NCBI GenBank assembly: GCA_027483445.1 | Contig: JAIXUS010000017.1 | Span: 1-48,640, forward strand | DNA from: Bacteroidota bacterium | GTDB taxonomy: Bacteria > Bacteroidota > Bacteroidia > M30B66 | DNA: 48,640 nucleotides | Reading direction: 5' to 3' | In this document: one piece after another, positions 21,384 through 30,715 of the stretch | How the letters are laid out: every line of letters begins with the position of its first letter | Numbering within the stretch: position 1 is the stretch's first letter | The notes under the pieces: generated by a model | The model's database searches: none | Told to the model about the DNA's origin: nothing | The model's input: only the letters and a program-made list of their open reading frames with translations | Translations under genes and position numbers: made by a program

Positions 21384-21616
21384 GCAAAGGCGACCGGCGC
21401 TTTGGGCTAGGGGCAAGGACAAAATTGGGGGGCTGTCGGGAAACCTGTAGGATTAATGCCTTTGGCATAATGCAATAGTGATTAGTCCTGATAAGGTATT
21501 GTAATTTCGGGTATATTATTGCTGCCGAATTTATTAGGAATGTTTAAACCATTGCTAAATTTCCCTAAGGCATGTAAAAAGTTTGTGTGCGAGAAATATG
21601 GTGGTTTTTGTGGAAT

Positions 21617-21629
21617 GTTGTTATGAGGC
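21617..21629 (-). other. Cassette-end core-like site 1
   Basis: The sense (minus) strand reads GCCTCATAACAAC, just after the stop of the gene at 21639. It is a weaker version of the CCGCATAAC cores at sites 2 and 3. The remaining 270-bp gap to the receptor gene shows no clear partner arm. Confidence 0.3.
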
Positions 21630-21638
21630 TGTTTTTTT

Positions 21639-22403
21639 TCAAAATATTGATTTTTTTGTAATAACACCATCAACTATGTTTATTGATGTGAAACTTCCAA
21701 GCTTATATTTCCCTGTATTTGCAAGTTGTTTCTCAATGTAAACTAAGTCGCCTACCGAAATTGATTTCTCATAAACCTGCTCAATAACAATGGTTAAACC
21801 ATCAATAGTTTGATATTCTTTTGGGTAAGTTATCTTAAAAAGTTTTCCATTTTTTAATTCATAATAACGACCTGTGTTTTGAGATTTATATTTCCCATCA
21901 TCAGGCCGCTCTCCATCAATTGTGGCTTTCATCCCTAATTTCAAAAAAATCTCAGATGTACCTCTATAAATTTCTAACGTTTTACCATTCTCTAGCATGC
22001 CTGTAACCACATTAAATTTTTTGTAAGTAACAGATTGTAGATATTTCTTTACATCTAAGTCTGGTATTAAAGTTTCGTTTGCTAAGATGAATAGCTCATT
22101 ATTGGTTCCGTCGACTTTTAGAATCATAACAGCGTTATCGAAAAAGGACTGGTTTAGTAAAATCTTATCTTTTATTCTGTCAATTAATATGGACTTTGCT
22201 CCTTGTAGGTATTCCCAATTGCCTAATTGAACTTGTCCGTTGAGTGACAAAACTAATTGTCCGTCTCTTTTGAAAATATATTTGTGATAATTGGATTCAA
22301 TGTCAATTAGGACCCAAGGTTTATCAATGAATAATGCAGTGTTATCCAGTTTTTCACTGAACTGCGATAGTCTGTTTATTAGGTCTTGAAGGTATATTCT
22401 CAT
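21639..22403 (-). CDS. Hypothetical protein of an AT-rich cassette-like block
   Basis: This 254-residue cytoplasmic-looking protein has no signal peptide or membrane segment. It starts MRIYLQDLINRLSQFSEKLD and continues with KPWVLIDIESNYHKYIFKRDGQLVLS, then several strand-rich stretches (GNWEYLQGAKSILIDR, AVMILKVDGTNNELFILANE). I recall similar proteins in Bacteroidota but cannot name a family. Base composition is clearly more AT-rich than the flanking genes. No TAnnTTTG box lies at its start. Nine bases after its TGA stop the sense strand reads GCCTCATAAC, related to the CCGCATAAC found after the next two genes. This suggests a mobile gene cassette of unknown function. Confidence 0.6.
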   Translation of the reverse strand: MRIYLQDLINRLSQFSEKLDNTALFIDKPWVLIDIESNYHKYIFKRDGQLVLSLNGQVQLGNWEYLQGAKSILIDRIKDKILLNQSFFDNAVMILKVDGTNNELFILANETLIPDLDVKKYLQSVTYKKFNVVTGMLENGKTLEIYRGTSEIFLKLGMKATIDGERPDDGKYKSQNTGRYYELKNGKLFKITYPKEYQTIDGLTIVIEQVYEKSISVGDLVYIEKQLANTGKYKLGSFTSINIVDGVITKKSIF

Positions 22404-22578
22404 TTTGCTCTTTATCGCTCTTAAAATGACTTAAACGTATTCAGGTCTTAGTACATTTGGGAATTTTGAACCGAAAACGGCCAGTCACGACGAAAAAAAT
22501 AGTAAAAGACGAGAAACCCCAAATGCCTATAATTACTCAAACGGTCGAAGTTTGTAATTGCCTAAATTTACTTTTCCT

Positions 22579-22595
22579 CCATACCAGTTATGCGG
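22579..22595 (-). other. Cassette-end core-like site 2 (CCGCATAACTGGTATGG)
   Basis: The sense (minus) strand reads TAA then CCGCATAACTGGTATGG directly after the stop of the gene at 22596. It is an inverted match (AGTTATGCGG against CCGCATAACT) to the site at 23751-23766, so the two genes in between are bracketed by an inverted repeat. Confidence 0.45.
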
Positions 22596-23063
22596 TTAAA
22601 ATTCAACTGGTAAAAATTGCTTCTCAGTTTTCATTTCTGTCAGGCATGGATTATTCACTTGTCTAAATTCACTTTTATTTTCATAAGGAGTCATAACCCA
22701 CTTAAAGTCATCAAATGACCATAAAATCAGTTTTTGTGTATCATTCTTGACTTCTACAGTAAACTCGCAATTTACTCCTTTGTCTGCTGCATTCATGTAA
22801 AATGACCTATTACCCACCAGACGGATAAACTTGTTGATAACCAGACTATTTGGGCTGTCTAGTTGCCAGTAAATGGTCACATAACCGCTATCAATCGTAA
22901 TCATTGGTGTTCCTCCATTGCATGGGTCATATACTAAGTAACCCAAACTGTCACGCTCAACCTTAATCCACTTCTTGGGAAAATCGTCAAGACTTTTCCA
23001 AGTCGCTTGTCCAAATGAAACCAGAAAAGCTGAAGTAAGAATCACCGTAAATAAGCTTTTCAT
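22596..23063 (-). CDS. Hypothetical secreted protein of the cassette-like block
   Basis: This protein of about 155 residues starts at MKSLFTVILTSAFLVSF (ATG 23063), a short signal peptide ending near FGQ. The open frame extends to 23156 but the extra 31 residues are polar and lack a reason to be kept. The mature part (KSLDDFPKKWIKVERDSLGYLVYDPCNGGTP, ITIDSGYVTIYWQL, LWSFDDFKWVMTPYE) looks like a small beta-rich domain; no family is recognised. It is AT-rich, with no TAnnTTTG box upstream. The stop codon is followed immediately by CCGCATAAC on the sense strand. Confidence 0.55.
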   Translation of the reverse strand: MKSLFTVILTSAFLVSFGQATWKSLDDFPKKWIKVERDSLGYLVYDPCNGGTPMITIDSGYVTIYWQLDSPNSLVINKFIRLVGNRSFYMNAADKGVNCEFTVEVKNDTQKLILWSFDDFKWVMTPYENKSEFRQVNNPCLTEMKTEKQFLPVEF

Positions 23064-23102
23064 TTTACTTGAATCATTTGTTTGGAGCTTGCCTGTAGTA
23101 TT

Positions 23103-23240
23103 GCGGGCAACGGTTCGGCGGTTCGGCGCAGTTGCCAACTGATGCGCACCGGCCATTCAACATGCACCTAAGCCAAAGGTATACAACAAGGTTTAAATTA
23201 GCAAAATGCCCGGCAATTGAGTCAAACCGCTGTTATGCGG
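23103..23240 (-). other. attC-like foldable region between two cassette-like genes
   Basis: On the sense (minus) strand it begins with CCGCATAACAGCGGTTTGAC, whose TAA is the stop codon of the gene at 23233, and ends with GCCGAACCGTTGCCCGC. The two arms pair through GCGGTTTGAC and GCCGAACCG, with unpaired bases next to an AAC/GTT triplet. That is the general layout of an integron attC site. The arms pair imperfectly and no integrase gene is in the window, so this is a proposal only. Confidence 0.35.
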
Positions 23241-23727
23241 TCGGCTTTCTTGCCTTTCGCTGTTCATATTCACTTAAAAGTCTGTTTAATATTTCTATTT
23301 TTTCATTTTCAACTGGTTCGGTTTGGCAAAGTTGGTCAACCATTATATTGATGTCGTAAAATTGGTTGTCAGTCGTGATTTTTCCTTTCTCAATTATCTT
23401 GTCAATACGTTGGAAATAAGATTTAAAAATGTCAATGTCATACTTGGTTTTGTCTTGCAGATACTTGTTGAATTTTAAGTCACCTGTTTCTAATTGCATT
23501 TCTGTCAAGTCACGAAACCATTGTTTCAGCCTTGTCAGTCTTCCCTTTTGGTAATTTTCTTCTGTTTTTACTTTAAGTCCTTTGTAATGTTCCTCAGAGT
23601 CAAAGTCGGCTGTCTTGAATTGCATTTCTTTATTGTCAATGTAGTAATCAAGTGTCGCCAAGACCAAATCCCGATACTTTAAAAGTTGAGCCTGCTTTTC
23701 GTCTTGGTTGAGTTTATTGTCTGTCAT
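23233..23727 (-). CDS. Hypothetical alpha-helical protein of the cassette-like block
   Basis: This 164-residue protein is highly charged and predicted mostly helical (LKYRDLVLATLDYYIDNKEM, KGRLTRLKQWFRDLTEMQLE, EKIEILNRLLSEYEQRKARK). It has no signal peptide and no family I recognise. It is AT-rich relative to the flanks. The TAA stop is embedded in GCATAAC, the core-like end of the proposed cassette. Upstream the sense strand reads GTTATGCGGC 21 nt before the start, the inverted form of the same core. No promoter box is seen. Confidence 0.55.
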   Translation of the reverse strand: MTDNKLNQDEKQAQLLKYRDLVLATLDYYIDNKEMQFKTADFDSEEHYKGLKVKTEENYQKGRLTRLKQWFRDLTEMQLETGDLKFNKYLQDKTKYDIDIFKSYFQRIDKIIEKGKITTDNQFYDINIMVDQLCQTEPVENEKIEILNRLLSEYEQRKARKPTA

Positions 23728-23750
23728 TAGCTGAGTCGTCTTTTAAGCTG

Positions 23751-23766
23751 CCGCATAACTAGTATC
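23751..23766 (+). other. Cassette boundary core-like site (CCGCATAACTAGTATC)
   Basis: This is the inverted partner of the site at 22579-22595 (CCGCATAACT shared exactly). On the minus strand it reads GATACTAGTTATGCGG and marks the 5' boundary of the block. It has no counterpart arm in the next 150 bp, so an upstream cassette, if it existed, has been lost. Confidence 0.4.
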
Positions 23767-24226
23767 TACATACATTTTATTAGCGCATTTTGTCATTTTC
23801 ACACCCGCGAATTAACGTACTCCTTTTCTGTTTTCAAAGCCAGGTCAACATATCTAGTCCGGATTAAGGGTTGAGCCCATATACAGGTTGAGCCGCAACA
23901 CTAAGGGCTGTGCAGGCTTGTTTGCGTACTGCGTTGGTTTGGTGGGCCCCGAAATGCCGCAAATGCTATTGGTCGGAGGCATGGTGAATTGTTAAAATCA
24001 CATTACGAGGGCTCGGCGGCTGCGGTGTATATGGTGTTGGGTTGGCCGGTGCAAGAAATCGACTTAATTGGGTTTGAGTTTAGGGTTAATGAATACATAA
24101 TCAATACATTATCGTTCGATAGCCTTGTGTAAACCTACGTAATGCCGAAGCCTATTCTCGTGCAAATCTGAAAAACCCGGACGCGGCATGTCCGTAAACA
24201 TGGAGAGCATTTAGTACTGCTCCGGC
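23767..24226. other. 460-bp non-coding gap before the giant adhesin
   Basis: No supported gene. Plus-strand frames of 30-60 codons here (for example one containing VYMVLGWPVQEIDLIGFEF, ending near 24131) lack a start and may be coding relics. I see no TAnnTTTG box close to the adhesin start at 24227. Confidence 0.4.
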
Positions 24227-27200
24227 ATGCGCACTAAACAACACTGTAAATCTACTCCAACAAGCGGCATTCGTGCTATTCTGGCATTCTTGGCCATTGT
24301 GTGCATTCAGCTGGTGGCCATGGGCCAAGGTGGCCGGTTTAACAACTGGTACTTTGGCAATACGGCGGGTGTGTCATTTGCCTCAGGGGCTCCGGTGGCG
24401 CTTACCAACGGGGTGCTGTCGACCACCGAGGGCTGTGCTTCAATCTCCACCGAGGCCGGCAATCTGCTGTTTTACACCGACGGGGTAACAGTGTGGAATG
24501 CCAACCACCTGCCAATGACCAATGGTACCGGTCTTACCGGACATGCATCATCCACCCAAAGTGCCATTATTGTACAGCAACCCTTAAATCCTAACCGCTA
24601 CTTTATTTTTACTGCCGATGCCGACGTCGGTCCGAATGGCATTCGCTACTCGGTTGTCGATATGAGTCTATCGGCCGGCTTGGGCGCCGTAACCACCACC
24701 AAGAATGTTCCCTTGCAAACCCCTTCGTGCGAGAAAATTTGCGCAGTGAGGCATTGCAACAACCGCGATGTATGGATTGTGAGTCACGACTGGAATTCGA
24801 ACACCTTCCGCACCTGGCTGCTTACGCCCACGGGCTTAAACACCACGCCAGTGCTCAGCAATGCGGGCATTGTGCCGAGCGGCATCGTGCAGTCGGGATA
24901 TGGGCAACTTAAGGCCAATCTCGACGGCAACCGCCTGCTGGCCTGCTATTATGGCTTTGCGGGCAGTGGCGCCAACCGTATGGAGGCCTACGATTTTAAC
25001 AATTCAACCGGGGTGGTCTCTAACGCCATCACCCTGGCCAGCGATGTAGGTCTATACGGTTGCGAGTTTTCGCCCAACGGGCGGATGGCCTACGGTGCCA
25101 CCAATCCGGGTACCCTCATACAATTTAACCTTTGTGCGGGCAACGCGGCGGCTATCGTGGCCAGTCGCTTTGTGGTGGCCACCACCGGACCCATCATTGG
25201 GAGTTTGCAGTTAGGTCCAGACGGACGTATCTATATTGCCCGGAATTCCACCTTTCTATCGGTGATTAACAACCCCAACACAGCCGGAGCGGGCTGTGGG
25301 TTTGTGAATGGGGCCATCCCGCTTGCCGGGCGTACCTCTCGCGTGGGCTTGCCCAATATGGCTTCTTTTTATCTAAGGCCACCAACGCCTCCCTTCACAG
25401 CAACGGCAAACTGCTTAAATGTTGGATTTTCGGCCCCTTCGGTGAGTACCTCGGCCAACAGTTGCGCCGGCGCATCGAGTGCTATTCAATCGGTGCAGTG
25501 GAACTTTGGCGACCCGGCATCAGGGGCGGCAAACACCTCTACCTTACTTAACCCTTCGCATACCTTTAGTGCGGTGGGCACCTATTCGGTACGTTTGGTA
25601 CTGAACCTCGGTTGTTACAACGATACTTTAATTCAGAGCATTACCCTAAACGGGTTTAATGTAAGCACCTCTACAACACCGGCTTCGTGCGGCGCCAACA
25701 ACGGAACGGCCTCGGTAACGCCTGCAGTGCCCGGCGTTTATACGTATGCCTGGAGTAACGGTCAAACTACGGCCACGGCAACCGGACTGGCAGCCGGCAA
25801 CTACAGCGTTACGGTAACATCACTGGCGGGCTGTTCAACGGTGGCTAATGTAACAGTGAGTTCGGGTGGGGCTTTGACGTTAAATGTGAATCCACAAAAT
25901 GCCACTTGCTTTGGATCGGCTTCGGGCAGTGCCGCCGCCAGCACAACAGGTGGAGTAGCGCCTTACACCTACGCCTGGAGTAATGGTGGGGCAGGAGCGA
26001 GTGTTAGTGGACTTTCAGCGGGCAGCTACAGCGTTACGGTTACCGATGCTTCAGGGTGCAGCGCTACACAGTCGTTTAACATTGCCCAGCCAACCGCCTT
26101 AAATGCTACGGTAAATGTGGCTCCGCCTACGTGCAGTGCCGTTACAGGCTCGGCCTCGTTGAGTGTAAGCGGAGGCACGGCACCTTATACTTACGCCTGG
26201 AGCTCTGGAAGCACGGCCGCCTCAGTAAGCGGTCTGGCAAACGGTAGTTATTCGGTGGTGGTTACCGACAACAATGGATGCAGCCTAACCCGAAACTTCT
26301 CGATTAATATACCGCCTGCTCTTACGGCAACCTTGAATGCTACCGCGATTTCCTGTTCAGGTGCGGCCAATGGTAGTGCAAGTTTAAGTGCATCAGGCGG
26401 TACGCCGCCCTACACCTATGCATGGAGCAATGGAGCAACAACGGCAGCAGTGAGTAATTTACCACCCGGCGCCATTTCGGTTACCCTTACCGATGCTGCT
26501 GGCTGCACCATTACCCGCAACACAACAATTACACAGCCATCGCCTTTGCAGCTGAACCTCAATGTTGCACAGCCAACGTGCAGTACGCCAAGCGGATCCA
26601 TTTCGGCCAACGTGAGCGGCGGAACATCGCCCTATACCTACAGTTGGAGCAGTGGACAAAGCACAGCTGCTCTCTCAGGATTGAGCGCTGGCTCCTACAC
26701 CTTAACGGTGAGTGATGCAAATGGCTGCCAGGTGAGCCAAACCGGCACTTTGAACTTGGTAAATGGTATAACGGTGAGTATCAATTCCAGCAACCTTACC
26801 TGCTTTGGAGCTGCAAATGGCTCGGCCACTGCGGTGGTAAGCGGCGGCGGTGCACCGTATACGTATGCCTGGAGCAGCGGACAAACAACTCCGATTGTGA
26901 ACGGTCTGAATGCCGGAGTTTACACGGTAACAGCCACCAACTCGAATGGCTGCAGTGCTTCGGCTTCAACAACACTTACCCAGCCCGGTGGCATAAGTTT
27001 AAGCCTCAGTGCGACCGAGGCTTCGTGCGGTGCGGCCAATGGAACAGCGGCGGTGGTGGCATCGGGCGGACAGTTACCTTACACCTACAGCTGGAATACG
27101 AATCCGATCCAAACCACTGCGGGCTTAAGTGGACTTACTGCAGGCACTTACCAGGTAACTGTTAGCGATGCAAACGGCTGTAGCGTTCAAGGCAATGCGG

Positions 27201-30200
27201 TGGTGAATTCGCAAAATGGTCCAGTGCTTACCACAAATGTAACCCAACAAATTGCATGTTTTGGGGCTACAACAGGAGCCATACAGGCTTCGGCAACGGG
27301 AGGTTCGGCACCTTACCAGTTTAGTTGGTCGTCGGGGCAAACCACGGCCAACGTCAGCAATCTTGCGGCGGGCGCGTATACCGTTACGGTAACCGATGCA
27401 ACAGGCTGTACGGCTTCGGAGGTCATCAACCTAAATGCACCTACTGCCCTTGCTGCGGTTGTAACTACTACAGCAATTTCGTGTAACGGCGGCAGCGATG
27501 GCACTGCAAGCATTGTTGTTACCGGAGGTACTGCCCCTTACAGCTTTGCCTGGTCTAACGGAGCCAGCGGTTCTGTTGTAAGCGGATTAGGTTCGGGGGC
27601 ATATACTGTGAATGTAAGCGATTGGAATGGCTGCACCATAAGTCGCACCATATCGATGATACCACCGCCGCTTCTGGTGGTGAGTGATTCGGTTGTAGCG
27701 GTGAGCTGTTTTGGTGGAAACGACGGACAGGCCTATCTTCAAGTATCGGGCGGTATTGGTACGTACACGGCCAACTGGGGCAATGGTCAGAGTGGAATGG
27801 GCTTGTCGGGCCTTTCGGCCGGATTACATACCTATTCGGTGGTCGATGCTGCTGGTTGTACCCAAAGTGGCTCTGTGGTCATTACCCAGCCTACTGCTCT
27901 TTCGGCCGGTATTCAAGCCACGCCGGTAAGCTGTTTCAATGCTTCGGATGCGAATCTCGATTTAACCATAAGCGGAGGCACCGCCCCGTTTACCATCGTT
28001 TGGAACACAGGCGATGCGACAGAAGATCTTTTACAACAGTCGGCCGGAACCTACACCGCTGCGGTGAGTGATGCGATGGGCTGCACGGCTTCATCAACCG
28101 TGTTGATTACCGAACCCGATTCTATCAGCTTTACCTGGTCGGTTACACCTTCGTCGTGCAGCGGCTCAACCGGTTCATTGCTGTTTAGTGCTTCGGGCGG
28201 AACGGCACCCTATCAGTATTCGCTTGATGGAGGCGCTTTTCAAAACAATCCTTTCTTTGGCAGTTTAACGGCAGGGCAGCATGTTATTGAGATTCGCGAT
28301 GCCTCGCAGTGCTTGTTGAGCAGAACGGTTGCAGTGCCTTCGCCCAATGGCATTACGGTGGGTGTCGTAAATATTCAGTCCACCAGTTGCTTCGGACTTA
28401 ATAACGGATCAGCACAAGCTCAGGTAACTGGAGGAACACCGCCATTTTCGGTGCAATGGAGCTCCAATGAAAGTGGACTTTTGGCACAAGCGCTTAACAG
28501 CGGATTGCAGTTCGTTACCGTTACAGATGCTGCCGGTTGTTCGGCCACTCAAAACTTTAGCGTTCAGTCGCCTGCGGCCATCACCCATACTGCTCAAATG
28601 AGTCCGGCCACCTGTTATGGCCTTGCCGATGCTTCGGTACAGATCACAGCCGGTGGCGGAACAGGCAGCTTACAAATTGTATGGGAAAGCGGGGCAACGG
28701 CTTTCCAGCTTTCAGGCCTAACGGCCGGATGGTATCCGTTCGAAATTACTGATGCCAACGGCTGTGTGTTGATGGATACGGTAGAGGTTAGTCAACCCGC
28801 TCAACCCATCCTCATTCTTGCCACTGCCTCGCCCGGAGATTGCGGTGCCAGCAGCGGAAACATAAGCCTGCAGGTTAGCGGAGGAACGGCGCCTTATAAC
28901 TACACATGGAATGAGATTGCAGGCTTAAACAGTCCGGTTGCCGGTAATTTAACACCGGGAACATACACCGTGCAGGTTACTGACCAAAATAACTGTCAAA
29001 CCGGCACTTCGGTTACCTTGAATTCTGCTCCACCCATTTCGGTGATGGTCGATTCGGTTCGCCATGCCTCATGTTTCGATGCCGGCGACGGTGGTGTGTA
29101 TTTGAGCGTAAGCGGCGGCACTGCACCATATCAATACCAGTGGGGGCAGGGACTTCAGCCGACAATACCTGCGAATTTGCCTTCGGGCACCTATTCGATG
29201 CAGGTAATCGACAATGCCGGTTGTAGTACTACGGCCAATTTTACCATCAACCAGCCACTGGCTTTAGTTGTTACAGCAACGCCTCAGCATTTAACGTGTA
29301 ACGGTGCGGGTAACGGAAGAATTTTTCTGAACATTAACGGCGGTACACAGCCTTACAGCTATCAATGGTCGAATGGGCTACAAACCCAGAACAATAACAA
29401 CCTTGCGGCGGGCAGTTATCAATGCACAATTACCGATGCCAATGGCTGTAGTGTTCAGGTATCTCAGGTATTAACTGAGCCAGCAATGTTGACCTTAGAG
29501 TTGGTGATTGACCAACCCGGCTGCGACGGTTTACCGGACGGGTCGATTGCTACTGTTTTAACGGGTGGCACTACTCCATATAGCTTTCAGTGGAGCAATG
29601 GCTCTATTGCGCCTGCTATCGCAGGATTACCACCCGGTGAATATGTAGTTAACGCCATCGATGCCAACGGTTGCAGCCGACAAGCAACGGCAATGCTCAG
29701 TTCGACGCCTGCTTTCGATATATTTATTGAGGGCGATACGGTATTGTGCGCGGGAGAGCAGACAATTCTTACAGCTTCGGCCAATGGTATTCACAACCAG
29801 TACATTTACGAGTGGCAGCATGGTCCACTTGGAGCCAATATCGGGGTAAACCCGATGGCCAGCGGTTGGTACACAGTAACGGTAACCGATTCGACCGGAT
29901 GTAGCGGAACGCGTTCGGTGTTCGTAGAGGTAAATCCGGTTCCGGAATTGGCAATAGTAGCCGATGATACCAGTGGTTGTGCTCCTTTCTGTGCTAAGAT
30001 TTACGCAGTTTCTCCGCAAGCCACAGATTGGCTATGGAGCTTTAGCAATGGACTTACGGCAAACACAGAGCAGGCGCTTCCGTGTTTCGACTTGCCCGGC
30101 ATTTATTCGGTACAGCTTGTAGTTCAAGATTCGAATGGTTGCAAGCGGTCGATGACCTGGGAGCCGGTGATTGAGGTATTTGCTAATCCAGTGGCGGCAT

Positions 30201-30715
30201 TCTCGGCTTCGCCTAACGAAACTACCTTGGATTATCCGCAGGTTTACTTCCAAAATCAGAGTGTGGGTGCGAGCACGTATTCTTATCACTTCGGCGACCC
30301 TGCACAAAGCATGGTGTTTGTTCCCAATGCGATGCACACGTATCAGGATACCGGTTATTTTGAGGTAACTCTGGAAGTAACGAATCCCAATGGCTGCCGC
30401 GATATGGCCATCCAAACCGTACATATAGGAGGCTTTACAGCCTTTTACATTCCTAAAGCATTTACGCCTAACGACGATGGTCTGAACGACACGTTTATGC
30501 CTAAGGCTACCGGCTTATCGCCAAACGGCTTTGAAATGCGAATTTTCGACCGCTGGGGTAACCAGATTTTCTATTCCGACGACTGGAATAAAGGTTGGGA
30601 CGGAACGTATATGGGCAAGCCTGTACCTTTAGACCAATATGTGTGTAAGGTGAGGTATTACGATAAGATCGGTAATCAGAACGACCATATTGGCTCGGTG
30701 GTAGTTACCGAGTAA
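24227..30715 (+). CDS. Giant SprB-repeat adhesin with type B T9SS (gliding motility-associated) C-terminal domain
   Basis: This 2162-residue surface protein has a signal peptide (about 1-33, ending MGQ). Residues about 35-390 form a propeller-like domain (GNTAGVSFASG, STEAGNLLFYTDGVTVW). A PKD domain follows (about 400-475, WNFGDPASG). Eighteen SprB repeats of 74-77 residues fill about 480-1826, each with a conserved Cys near its start, then an S/TGG..PY.Y.WS.G core, a GL..G.Y.V.V.D..GC segment and a QP turn. An Ig-like and two PKD-like domains follow. The end is the type B sorting domain (IPKAFTPNDDGLNDTFMP, then MRIFDRWGNQIFYS). SprB is the mobile adhesin of gliding Flavobacteriia; whether this protein moves or only attaches cells is unknown. 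Confidence 0.93.
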   Translation: MRTKQHCKSTPTSGIRAILAFLAIVCIQLVAMGQGGRFNNWYFGNTAGVSFASGAPVALTNGVLSTTEGCASISTEAGNLLFYTDGVTVWNANHLPMTNGTGLTGHASSTQSAIIVQQPLNPNRYFIFTADADVGPNGIRYSVVDMSLSAGLGAVTTTKNVPLQTPSCEKICAVRHCNNRDVWIVSHDWNSNTFRTWLLTPTGLNTTPVLSNAGIVPSGIVQSGYGQLKANLDGNRLLACYYGFAGSGANRMEAYDFNNSTGVVSNAITLASDVGLYGCEFSPNGRMAYGATNPGTLIQFNLCAGNAAAIVASRFVVATTGPIIGSLQLGPDGRIYIARNSTFLSVINNPNTAGAGCGFVNGAIPLAGRTSRVGLPNMASFYLRPPTPPFTATANCLNVGFSAPSVSTSANSCAGASSAIQSVQWNFGDPASGAANTSTLLNPSHTFSAVGTYSVRLVLNLGCYNDTLIQSITLNGFNVSTSTTPASCGANNGTASVTPAVPGVYTYAWSNGQTTATATGLAAGNYSVTVTSLAGCSTVANVTVSSGGALTLNVNPQNATCFGSASGSAAASTTGGVAPYTYAWSNGGAGASVSGLSAGSYSVTVTDASGCSATQSFNIAQPTALNATVNVAPPTCSAVTGSASLSVSGGTAPYTYAWSSGSTAASVSGLANGSYSVVVTDNNGCSLTRNFSINIPPALTATLNATAISCSGAANGSASLSASGGTPPYTYAWSNGATTAAVSNLPPGAISVTLTDAAGCTITRNTTITQPSPLQLNLNVAQPTCSTPSGSISANVSGGTSPYTYSWSSGQSTAALSGLSAGSYTLTVSDANGCQVSQTGTLNLVNGITVSINSSNLTCFGAANGSATAVVSGGGAPYTYAWSSGQTTPIVNGLNAGVYTVTATNSNGCSASASTTLTQPGGISLSLSATEASCGAANGTAAVVASGGQLPYTYSWNTNPIQTTAGLSGLTAGTYQVTVSDANGCSVQGNAVVNSQNGPVLTTNVTQQIACFGATTGAIQASATGGSAPYQFSWSSGQTTANVSNLAAGAYTVTVTDATGCTASEVINLNAPTALAAVVTTTAISCNGGSDGTASIVVTGGTAPYSFAWSNGASGSVVSGLGSGAYTVNVSDWNGCTISRTISMIPPPLLVVSDSVVAVSCFGGNDGQAYLQVSGGIGTYTANWGNGQSGMGLSGLSAGLHTYSVVDAAGCTQSGSVVITQPTALSAGIQATPVSCFNASDANLDLTISGGTAPFTIVWNTGDATEDLLQQSAGTYTAAVSDAMGCTASSTVLITEPDSISFTWSVTPSSCSGSTGSLLFSASGGTAPYQYSLDGGAFQNNPFFGSLTAGQHVIEIRDASQCLLSRTVAVPSPNGITVGVVNIQSTSCFGLNNGSAQAQVTGGTPPFSVQWSSNESGLLAQALNSGLQFVTVTDAAGCSATQNFSVQSPAAITHTAQMSPATCYGLADASVQITAGGGTGSLQIVWESGATAFQLSGLTAGWYPFEITDANGCVLMDTVEVSQPAQPILILATASPGDCGASSGNISLQVSGGTAPYNYTWNEIAGLNSPVAGNLTPGTYTVQVTDQNNCQTGTSVTLNSAPPISVMVDSVRHASCFDAGDGGVYLSVSGGTAPYQYQWGQGLQPTIPANLPSGTYSMQVIDNAGCSTTANFTINQPLALVVTATPQHLTCNGAGNGRIFLNINGGTQPYSYQWSNGLQTQNNNNLAAGSYQCTITDANGCSVQVSQVLTEPAMLTLELVIDQPGCDGLPDGSIATVLTGGTTPYSFQWSNGSIAPAIAGLPPGEYVVNAIDANGCSRQATAMLSSTPAFDIFIEGDTVLCAGEQTILTASANGIHNQYIYEWQHGPLGANIGVNPMASGWYTVTVTDSTGCSGTRSVFVEVNPVPELAIVADDTSGCAPFCAKIYAVSPQATDWLWSFSNGLTANTEQALPCFDLPGIYSVQLVVQDSNGCKRSMTWEPVIEVFANPVAAFSASPNETTLDYPQVYFQNQSVGASTYSYHFGDPAQSMVFVPNAMHTYQDTGYFEVTLEVTNPNGCRDMAIQTVHIGGFTAFYIPKAFTPNDDGLNDTFMPKATGLSPNGFEMRIFDRWGNQIFYSDDWNKGWDGTYMGKPVPLDQYVCKVRYYDKIGNQNDHIGSVVVTE
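25675..29705 (+). repeat. Eighteen coding tandem repeats of about 225 bp
   Basis: The conserved Cys codons recur every 220-230 bp (for example near 25686, 25908, 26130, 26352, 26577 and 29520). The DNA of the units has diverged more than the protein pattern, so the array is old rather than freshly amplified. It encodes the SprB repeats of the adhesin. Confidence 0.85.

Follow-up and report, generated by a model that had tools for sequence, protein, structure and literature searches.

The closest described systems are the IntI integrons and CALIN of IntegronFinder 2.0 (PMC9024848), which share with the system presented here single-gene, codirectional cassettes, a foldable attC site, a GTT junction, an attI site by the integrase, toxin-antitoxin cargo and the occurrence of orphan arrays. 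Our system differs from them in that its integrase has no IntI-specific insertion, its R boxes do not follow RYYYAAC/GTTRRRY, and the integrase is mostly codirectional with the array. The last feature is also found in integrons of the Treponema type, but these use a canonical IntI. According to surveys, Bacteroidota, one of the main phyla of gut, soil and water, have hardly any integrons. The IntegronFinder 2.0 survey records a single complete integron in Bacteroidetes, in Salinibacter (PMC9024848), and of the attC models built for 11 taxa none is for Bacteroidota (PMC8352920).

Several other reports touch on the system. In its treatment of an integron-like subgroup, a classification of tyrosine recombinases (PMC8138268) notes that the insertion is not fully conserved; the cassette integrases described below score around the cut-off of the related model NF040815, and in those passages of the classification the insert-less members are given no cassette or attC function. 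In Riemerella anatipestifer, aph(3')-IVb, lnu(H) and blaRATA are taken up independently of homology. As in the cassettes described here, the inserted resistance gene has little sequence on its 5' side and an attC-like stretch on its 3' side: in transformants that gain aph(3')-IVb these measure 27 bp and 140 bp, and no homology flanks the insert (PMC13148043, 2026). That study differs in that it calls the mechanism not yet fully elucidated and names no integrase. The xerD-tet(X3) unit of Acinetobacter plasmids shares a relative of the integrase and the attC family, but travels with the IS91-like ISVsa3. The open-licence papers on the motif and on Bacteroidota integrons contained no description of this system, and none of them names this protein as a cassette integrase.

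Here we analyse a block of three genes which is very probably an orphan fragment of an integron-like system common in Bacteroidota, probably served by an IntI-related integrase without the insertion; the copy of cassette A in the window was probably inserted off-target. The system would work like an integron, but departs from the canonical one on two defining points.

The gene block in the window

The window is the whole stretch of DNA that was analysed, 48,640 nucleotides in length, and its features are collected in Table 1. The sequence-only reading of this DNA described three unrecognised genes in tandem on the minus strand, and this is what is present: genes A, B and C, none with a Pfam match above cut-off. 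The block was also correctly described as AT-rich, having a GC content of 35.5% against about 52–55% in both flanks. This is explained by the composition of the cassette arrays of this genome, which have a GC content of 36.7%.

Other searches were negative: Rfam and tRNA scans of the window gave no matches, PADLOC gave no defence match for the three genes, and genes A and B were not matched on plasmids. The predicted fold of gene A (pLDDT 86) has only insignificant helical matches in the PDB (Dps-like, E 0.7). Gene C has weak relatives in three of 197 other genomes.

The same reading placed CATAAC cores at or near the ends of the genes. The 9-mer CCGCATAAC is present as described, and occurs three times in the window against 0.44 expected (three of 100 shuffles reach three) and only 16 times in the 4.26 Mb of the genome. 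The bare heptamer GCATAAC is not enriched, its nine copies in the window against 7.1 expected being at the level of chance.

Table 1 Features of the block, and the integrase locus of the same genome (last line, in positions of contig C55; all others are positions in the window).
Feature	Position	Strand	Remarks
Gene A	23233-23727	-	164 aa; predicted all-helical; stop codon within GCATAAC
Gene B	22596-23063	-	155 aa from the ATG of the signal peptide; signal peptide; outside known families
Gene C	21639-22403	-	254 aa; no support as a cassette
Cassette A	23111..23758	-	carries gene A; from the TT of the 5' GTTATGCGG to the G preceding the TT of the next cassette; 5' end conserved, second copy, attC
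Conserved cassette 5' end GTTATGCGGCAGCTTA	23744..23759	-	exact matches of GTTATGCGRCAGCTTA, before different genes
attC-like site after gene A	23097-23246	-	AAC 23234-23232, GTT 23111-23109, AAC to GTT 126 nt
Promoter-like TTTG-N20-TACCTTTG	23174..23205	-	within the attC loop, directed at gene B
Start of cassette B, GTTGCCCGCAAT	23100..23111	-	fits R' pattern GTTRnnnGCAAT
CCGCATAAC core directly past the gene B stop	22587..22595	-	attC body not detectable (relic)
CCGCATAAC copies	22587-22595, 23232-23240, 23751-23759	-, -, +	
Left junction ATGTATGTAGATACTA/GTT	23760..23775	-	putative attI-like secondary target site
C55 integrase	156382-158163		attC after it at 158635, 160159, 161120 and 162832; contig ends there

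A foldable site after gene A

The interval between genes A and B had been described as bounded by pairing arms next to AAC and GTT, and it folds in this way. A covariance model (R1) was built from 40 sites found elsewhere, with the window site excluded from training. The check over the block that had been suggested gave one match, at the A/B junction, which is also the single strong match in the window (57.5 bits, E=3.4e-12). The covariance model was decisive here, an initial hand-made arm score having given P 0.08 only.

The sites have a regular layout: AACA, about 20 nt, a long loop, about 20 nt complementary to the first, and A(A/C)C/GTT, where the slash marks the exchange point. From AAC to GTT they measure 120–127 nt, and like canonical attC sites (about 55–140 nt) they are conserved in folding and not in sequence. 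All 16 stem pairs show compensatory change on both sides, and an A.C mismatch within the stem is kept in 37 of the 40 sites while its neighbours covary. The proportion of stem cells paired is 91.6%, against 31–42% when the arms are slid, a figure biased upward because arm complementarity was the criterion by which sites were chosen. This criterion does not account for the conserved mismatch or for where the sites lie in the genomes. The bottom strand folds slightly better in 36 of 52 sites (P 0.001), which is only suggestive of recombination of the folded bottom strand by the integrase.

The sequences of the site ends differ from those of integrons. Among 52 non-redundant sites, RYYYAAC (R'') fits two and GTTRRRY (R') fits two; only AAC/A and C/GTT are invariant. 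Most sites have cores other than that of the window, such as GCTAAC with GTTAGC. The model from these sites did not detect the class 1 integron sites of two plasmids. In a member of the Melioribacteraceae (L045), repeated GCATAACAAC...GGTTATGC sites resemble a separate attC-like family, one of them scoring 29.8 bits.

An integrase without the IntI insertion

The sequence-only reading saw no integrase. This is correct for the locus itself, but the same genome encodes one, with a cassette array, on contig C55. It is not an IntI: proteins above the IntI cut-off were found in one of 395 genomes of the class, and in none of the contigs of this genome. Instead, a different tyrosine recombinase stands beside cassettes in four loci, and its family was found in 195 of 390 Bacteroidia genomes. 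These integrases have the catalytic R and the HxLRH, LGH and IYTH motifs. The IntI-specific insertion near patch III is present in the IntI of genome G142, and absent from the C55 integrase and its aligned relatives. They score below the cut-off of TIGR02249 and near that of NF040815 (recomb_XerA_Arch). In a tree of 32 sequences they group with IntI, apart from Xer proteins (100/100), several branches being long. The C55 recombinase was considered as a housekeeping Xer protein, and this was rejected on the basis of the attC directly after it and of the surrounding region. The C55 protein (L188, 6383-7280) has about 300 residues ahead of its catalytic core domains, apparently containing two copies of a motif that is single in shorter relatives.

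The integrases and the sites occur together. Around 45 integrase loci, 54 attC were found in 214 kb downstream and nine in 378 kb upstream, compared with 19 and 14 control hairpins. In about 28 of 46 loci, a core ...TATAAACAA/GTT... lies about 70–111 nt past the integrase stop, at a near-constant distance; it is likely to be attI. Two contigs end in this core, as expected for a variable array. The downstream excess, this core and contig C55 all agree with an array beside the integrase, starting at the putative attI. Across genomes, attC were present in 104 of the 107 with the integrase and in 49 of the 100 scored as negative for it (Fisher P 8e-17, which is overstated as the genomes are related). 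Five candidates per genome were scored, so that some of the 49 may be false negatives; in others, the arrays may be orphans.

This genome has 42 attC with E<0.01. Contig C39 carries ten codirectional sites (nine with E<0.001 and one weak) which adjoin the ends of ORFs, with ORFs between them, and the search found no tyrosine recombinase on that contig. It would thus qualify as a CALIN, defined by at least two attC without an integrase; the window, with one attC, does not. Cassettes of this array (L223, G000:C39:46063-47430) include ParDE-like and MNT/HEPN-like toxin-antitoxin pairs, a type of cargo also found in sedentary integrons.

The question is then whether the locus is simply the remnant of a canonical integron, its cassettes made and moved by an ordinary IntI while the XerA-like integrase is merely nearby. 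Cassette anatomy, codirectional arrays, toxin-antitoxin cargo and G/TT-type junctions are all integron traits, and a true IntI does exist in the class. However, that single IntI contrasts with attC in 153 of 207 genomes, the sites lie downstream of the insert-less integrase, their R boxes almost never fit the integron consensus, and the model built from them misses class 1 sites. We therefore regard this explanation as unlikely. The earlier description of the block as integron-type stands as regards the cassettes and the attC-like site, and has to be qualified in that the integrase lacks the insertion and the sites are off the canonical R-box consensus. For these two reasons the system is called integron-like here, and not an integron in the canonical sense.

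Cassette A and its copies

Gene A lies in a mobile cassette with a foldable attC-like recombination site. Its unit occurs a second time in the genome, with ends on contigs C37 (GTTATGCGG) and C18 (CCGCATAAC), and these two ends are two of the other genomic copies of CCGCATAAC. The two units are 89–92% identical, and the homology stops at GTTATGCGG and CCGCATAAC. Relatives of gene A, at 52–87% identity, are found in Pontibacter, Sediminibacterium, Pedobacter, Marinifilum, Carboxylicivirga, members of Kapaibacterium, and Melioribacteraceae, a taxonomic scatter that fits horizontal transfer. Several of them share both ends, GTTATGCGGCAGCTTA on the 5' side and GCCGACCGCATAAC on the 3' side, while their flanks are unrelated. 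With the strong model match, these repeats with the same ends, in the genome and in distant relatives, bear out the original suggestion for gene A, and the refutation tests proposed with it, as run, did not overturn gene A's cassette status.

Genes other than A also have this 5' end. Across 395 Bacteroidia genomes, GTTATGCGRCAGCTTA has 18 exact matches, against two for the reversed control, and the same end precedes unrelated genes. By their look, we take these to include genes for MerT-like and glyoxalase-like proteins.

Resistance gene cassettes on plasmids

An exact 27-mer of the conserved 5' end begins the erm(F) cassette of plasmids. In this cassette erm(F) is reversed (L072-L081), so that the 3' side of the gene faces the conserved 5' end; the hosts of the cassette are Bacteroides, Parabacteroides, Riemerella, Myroides, Sphingobacterium, Flagellimonas and one Salmonella IncC plasmid. 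Among the genes behind which the covariance model finds attC are erm(F), blaOXA-347 and tet(X2); on plasmids, erm(F), blaOXA-347, estT and tet(X) all have sites of the same attC family. A site of this family lies 11 nt past the stop of Acinetobacter tet(X3) (30.8 bits, truncated at the end of the record). In an Acinetobacter baylyi plasmid (L108, 2967-5117), the cassette integrase has a truncated relative, with 47% identity, in the XerD encoded before tet(X3). The site-specific integrase beside blaOXA-347 on a Myroides plasmid was considered as a cassette integrase and rejected on two grounds, its overlap with an IS91 transposase and its grouping with a second protein of this kind.

The plasmids also show natural exchange of cassettes, and where they are joined. 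Three plasmids continue after the blaOXA-347 tail (...GGCTACCATTTTTC) with GTTATGCGG (erm(F)), and a fourth continues with GTTAGCGGGC (estT). A second tail, ...CTTCGCCAATGCGTTTCCC, stands before estT in one record and before erm(F) in another. Both swaps, of two tails and two cassettes, switch at C/GTT, which agrees with exchange taking place between G and TT, although, GTT being shared, sequence does not place the cut inside it.

These junctions bear on two further explanations. The first is that the cassettes are non-autonomous, MITE-like elements with terminal inverted repeats, moved by a transposase that recognises GTTATGCGG...CCGCATAAC. The gene A unit does have inverted 9-bp ends, at which the homology between its two genomic copies stops. 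The copies differ beyond CCGCATAAC, yet the attC bodies, regular hairpins of about 124 nt, lie outside the inverted ends and are also present after unrelated genes; other cores are found at most sites; and one tail can have different right-hand partners, the change falling exactly at C/GTT. This makes such elements a most improbable explanation. It is scarcely credible that each hairpin is an ordinary transcription terminator or a repeat and that gene A was spread by homologous recombination, for although the hairpins come after genes and can fold, their AAC to GTT spacing is fixed, an internal mismatch is conserved between covarying neighbours, they are enriched on one side of the integrase, and exchange occurs at a single fixed junction.

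Proposed mechanism and origin of the block

On the basis of these observations, we infer an integron-like mechanism as follows. The mobile unit is a short cassette that begins with TT(R)..., usually carries one gene, and ends in an attC-like imperfect palindrome of about 120–127 nt. The IntI-related tyrosine recombinase without the insertion probably recognises these sites, folded as single strands, and catalyses their recombination. Cassettes would be inserted at attI (...GGGTATAAACAA/GTT...), about 90–110 nt past the integrase's own stop, with exchange at GTT. In this genome, C55 carries the integrase and an array.

The copy of cassette A in the window was probably inserted off-target, at an attI-like GATACTA/GTT, next to cassette B, whose attC may then have decayed. 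The left junction ranks fourth of the 1,817 GTT sites in the window when scored with an attI matrix from the sites after integrase genes, its score being 3.3 where most true sites score 9–21. A precise empty site was not found in the same genus: the nearest relative (G150) shares the gene for a TonB-dependent receptor (93%) and diverges right before it.

More broadly, we think it likely, on balance, that this is a second, phylum-wide lineage of integrons, in which folded attC sites are recognised by an IntI relative that does not have the insertion considered essential for this in IntI itself, that it has been overlooked because search tools require the insertion, and that it is the source of the erm(F), blaOXA-347, estT and tet(X) cassettes. 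Sites of one attC family are present in 74% of the Bacteroidia genomes sampled. If the integrase works as proposed, cassettes can be recombined without the IntI insertion, a point relevant to the origin of integrons from Xer-like recombinases. Resistance genes, among them erm(F), blaOXA-347 and tet(X), seem to have been packaged by the system. Under the same condition, it would explain how resistance genes of Bacteroidota are packaged and spread, including tet(X), which acts against a last-line drug, and would give the uptake observed in Riemerella a mechanism. Existing finders could then be extended by one covariance model and one protein model.

Genes B and C

All three genes had been proposed to form a cassette array. 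This is correct for gene A, and in part for gene B, which keeps the cassette start GTTGCCCGCAAT and the CCGCATAAC core while the attC body is missing; gene C is without a site. With its filters off, the covariance model found no attC at the end of gene B (22589) or gene C (21622). Gene B is therefore read as the start of a cassette that retains no more of its attC than the CCGCATAAC core, and cassette status is unsupported for C.

The statement that the genes lack promoter boxes is wrong for gene B, as the loop of the attC-like site contains the promoter-like element listed in Table 1. In a mixed set of 52 sites, promoter boxes are found in 15 loops on the top strand and one on the bottom strand, against 3.1 by shuffling. 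The signal is weak in this genome (6/33), and attC-loop promoters are therefore claimed for a subset of sites only. Where an attC loop carries such a predicted Bacteroidota promoter, its cassette could drive the next gene.

It is worth adding that the block adjoins a gene on the plus strand (24227-30715) for a surface-type protein of 2,162 aa, with many repeated domains.
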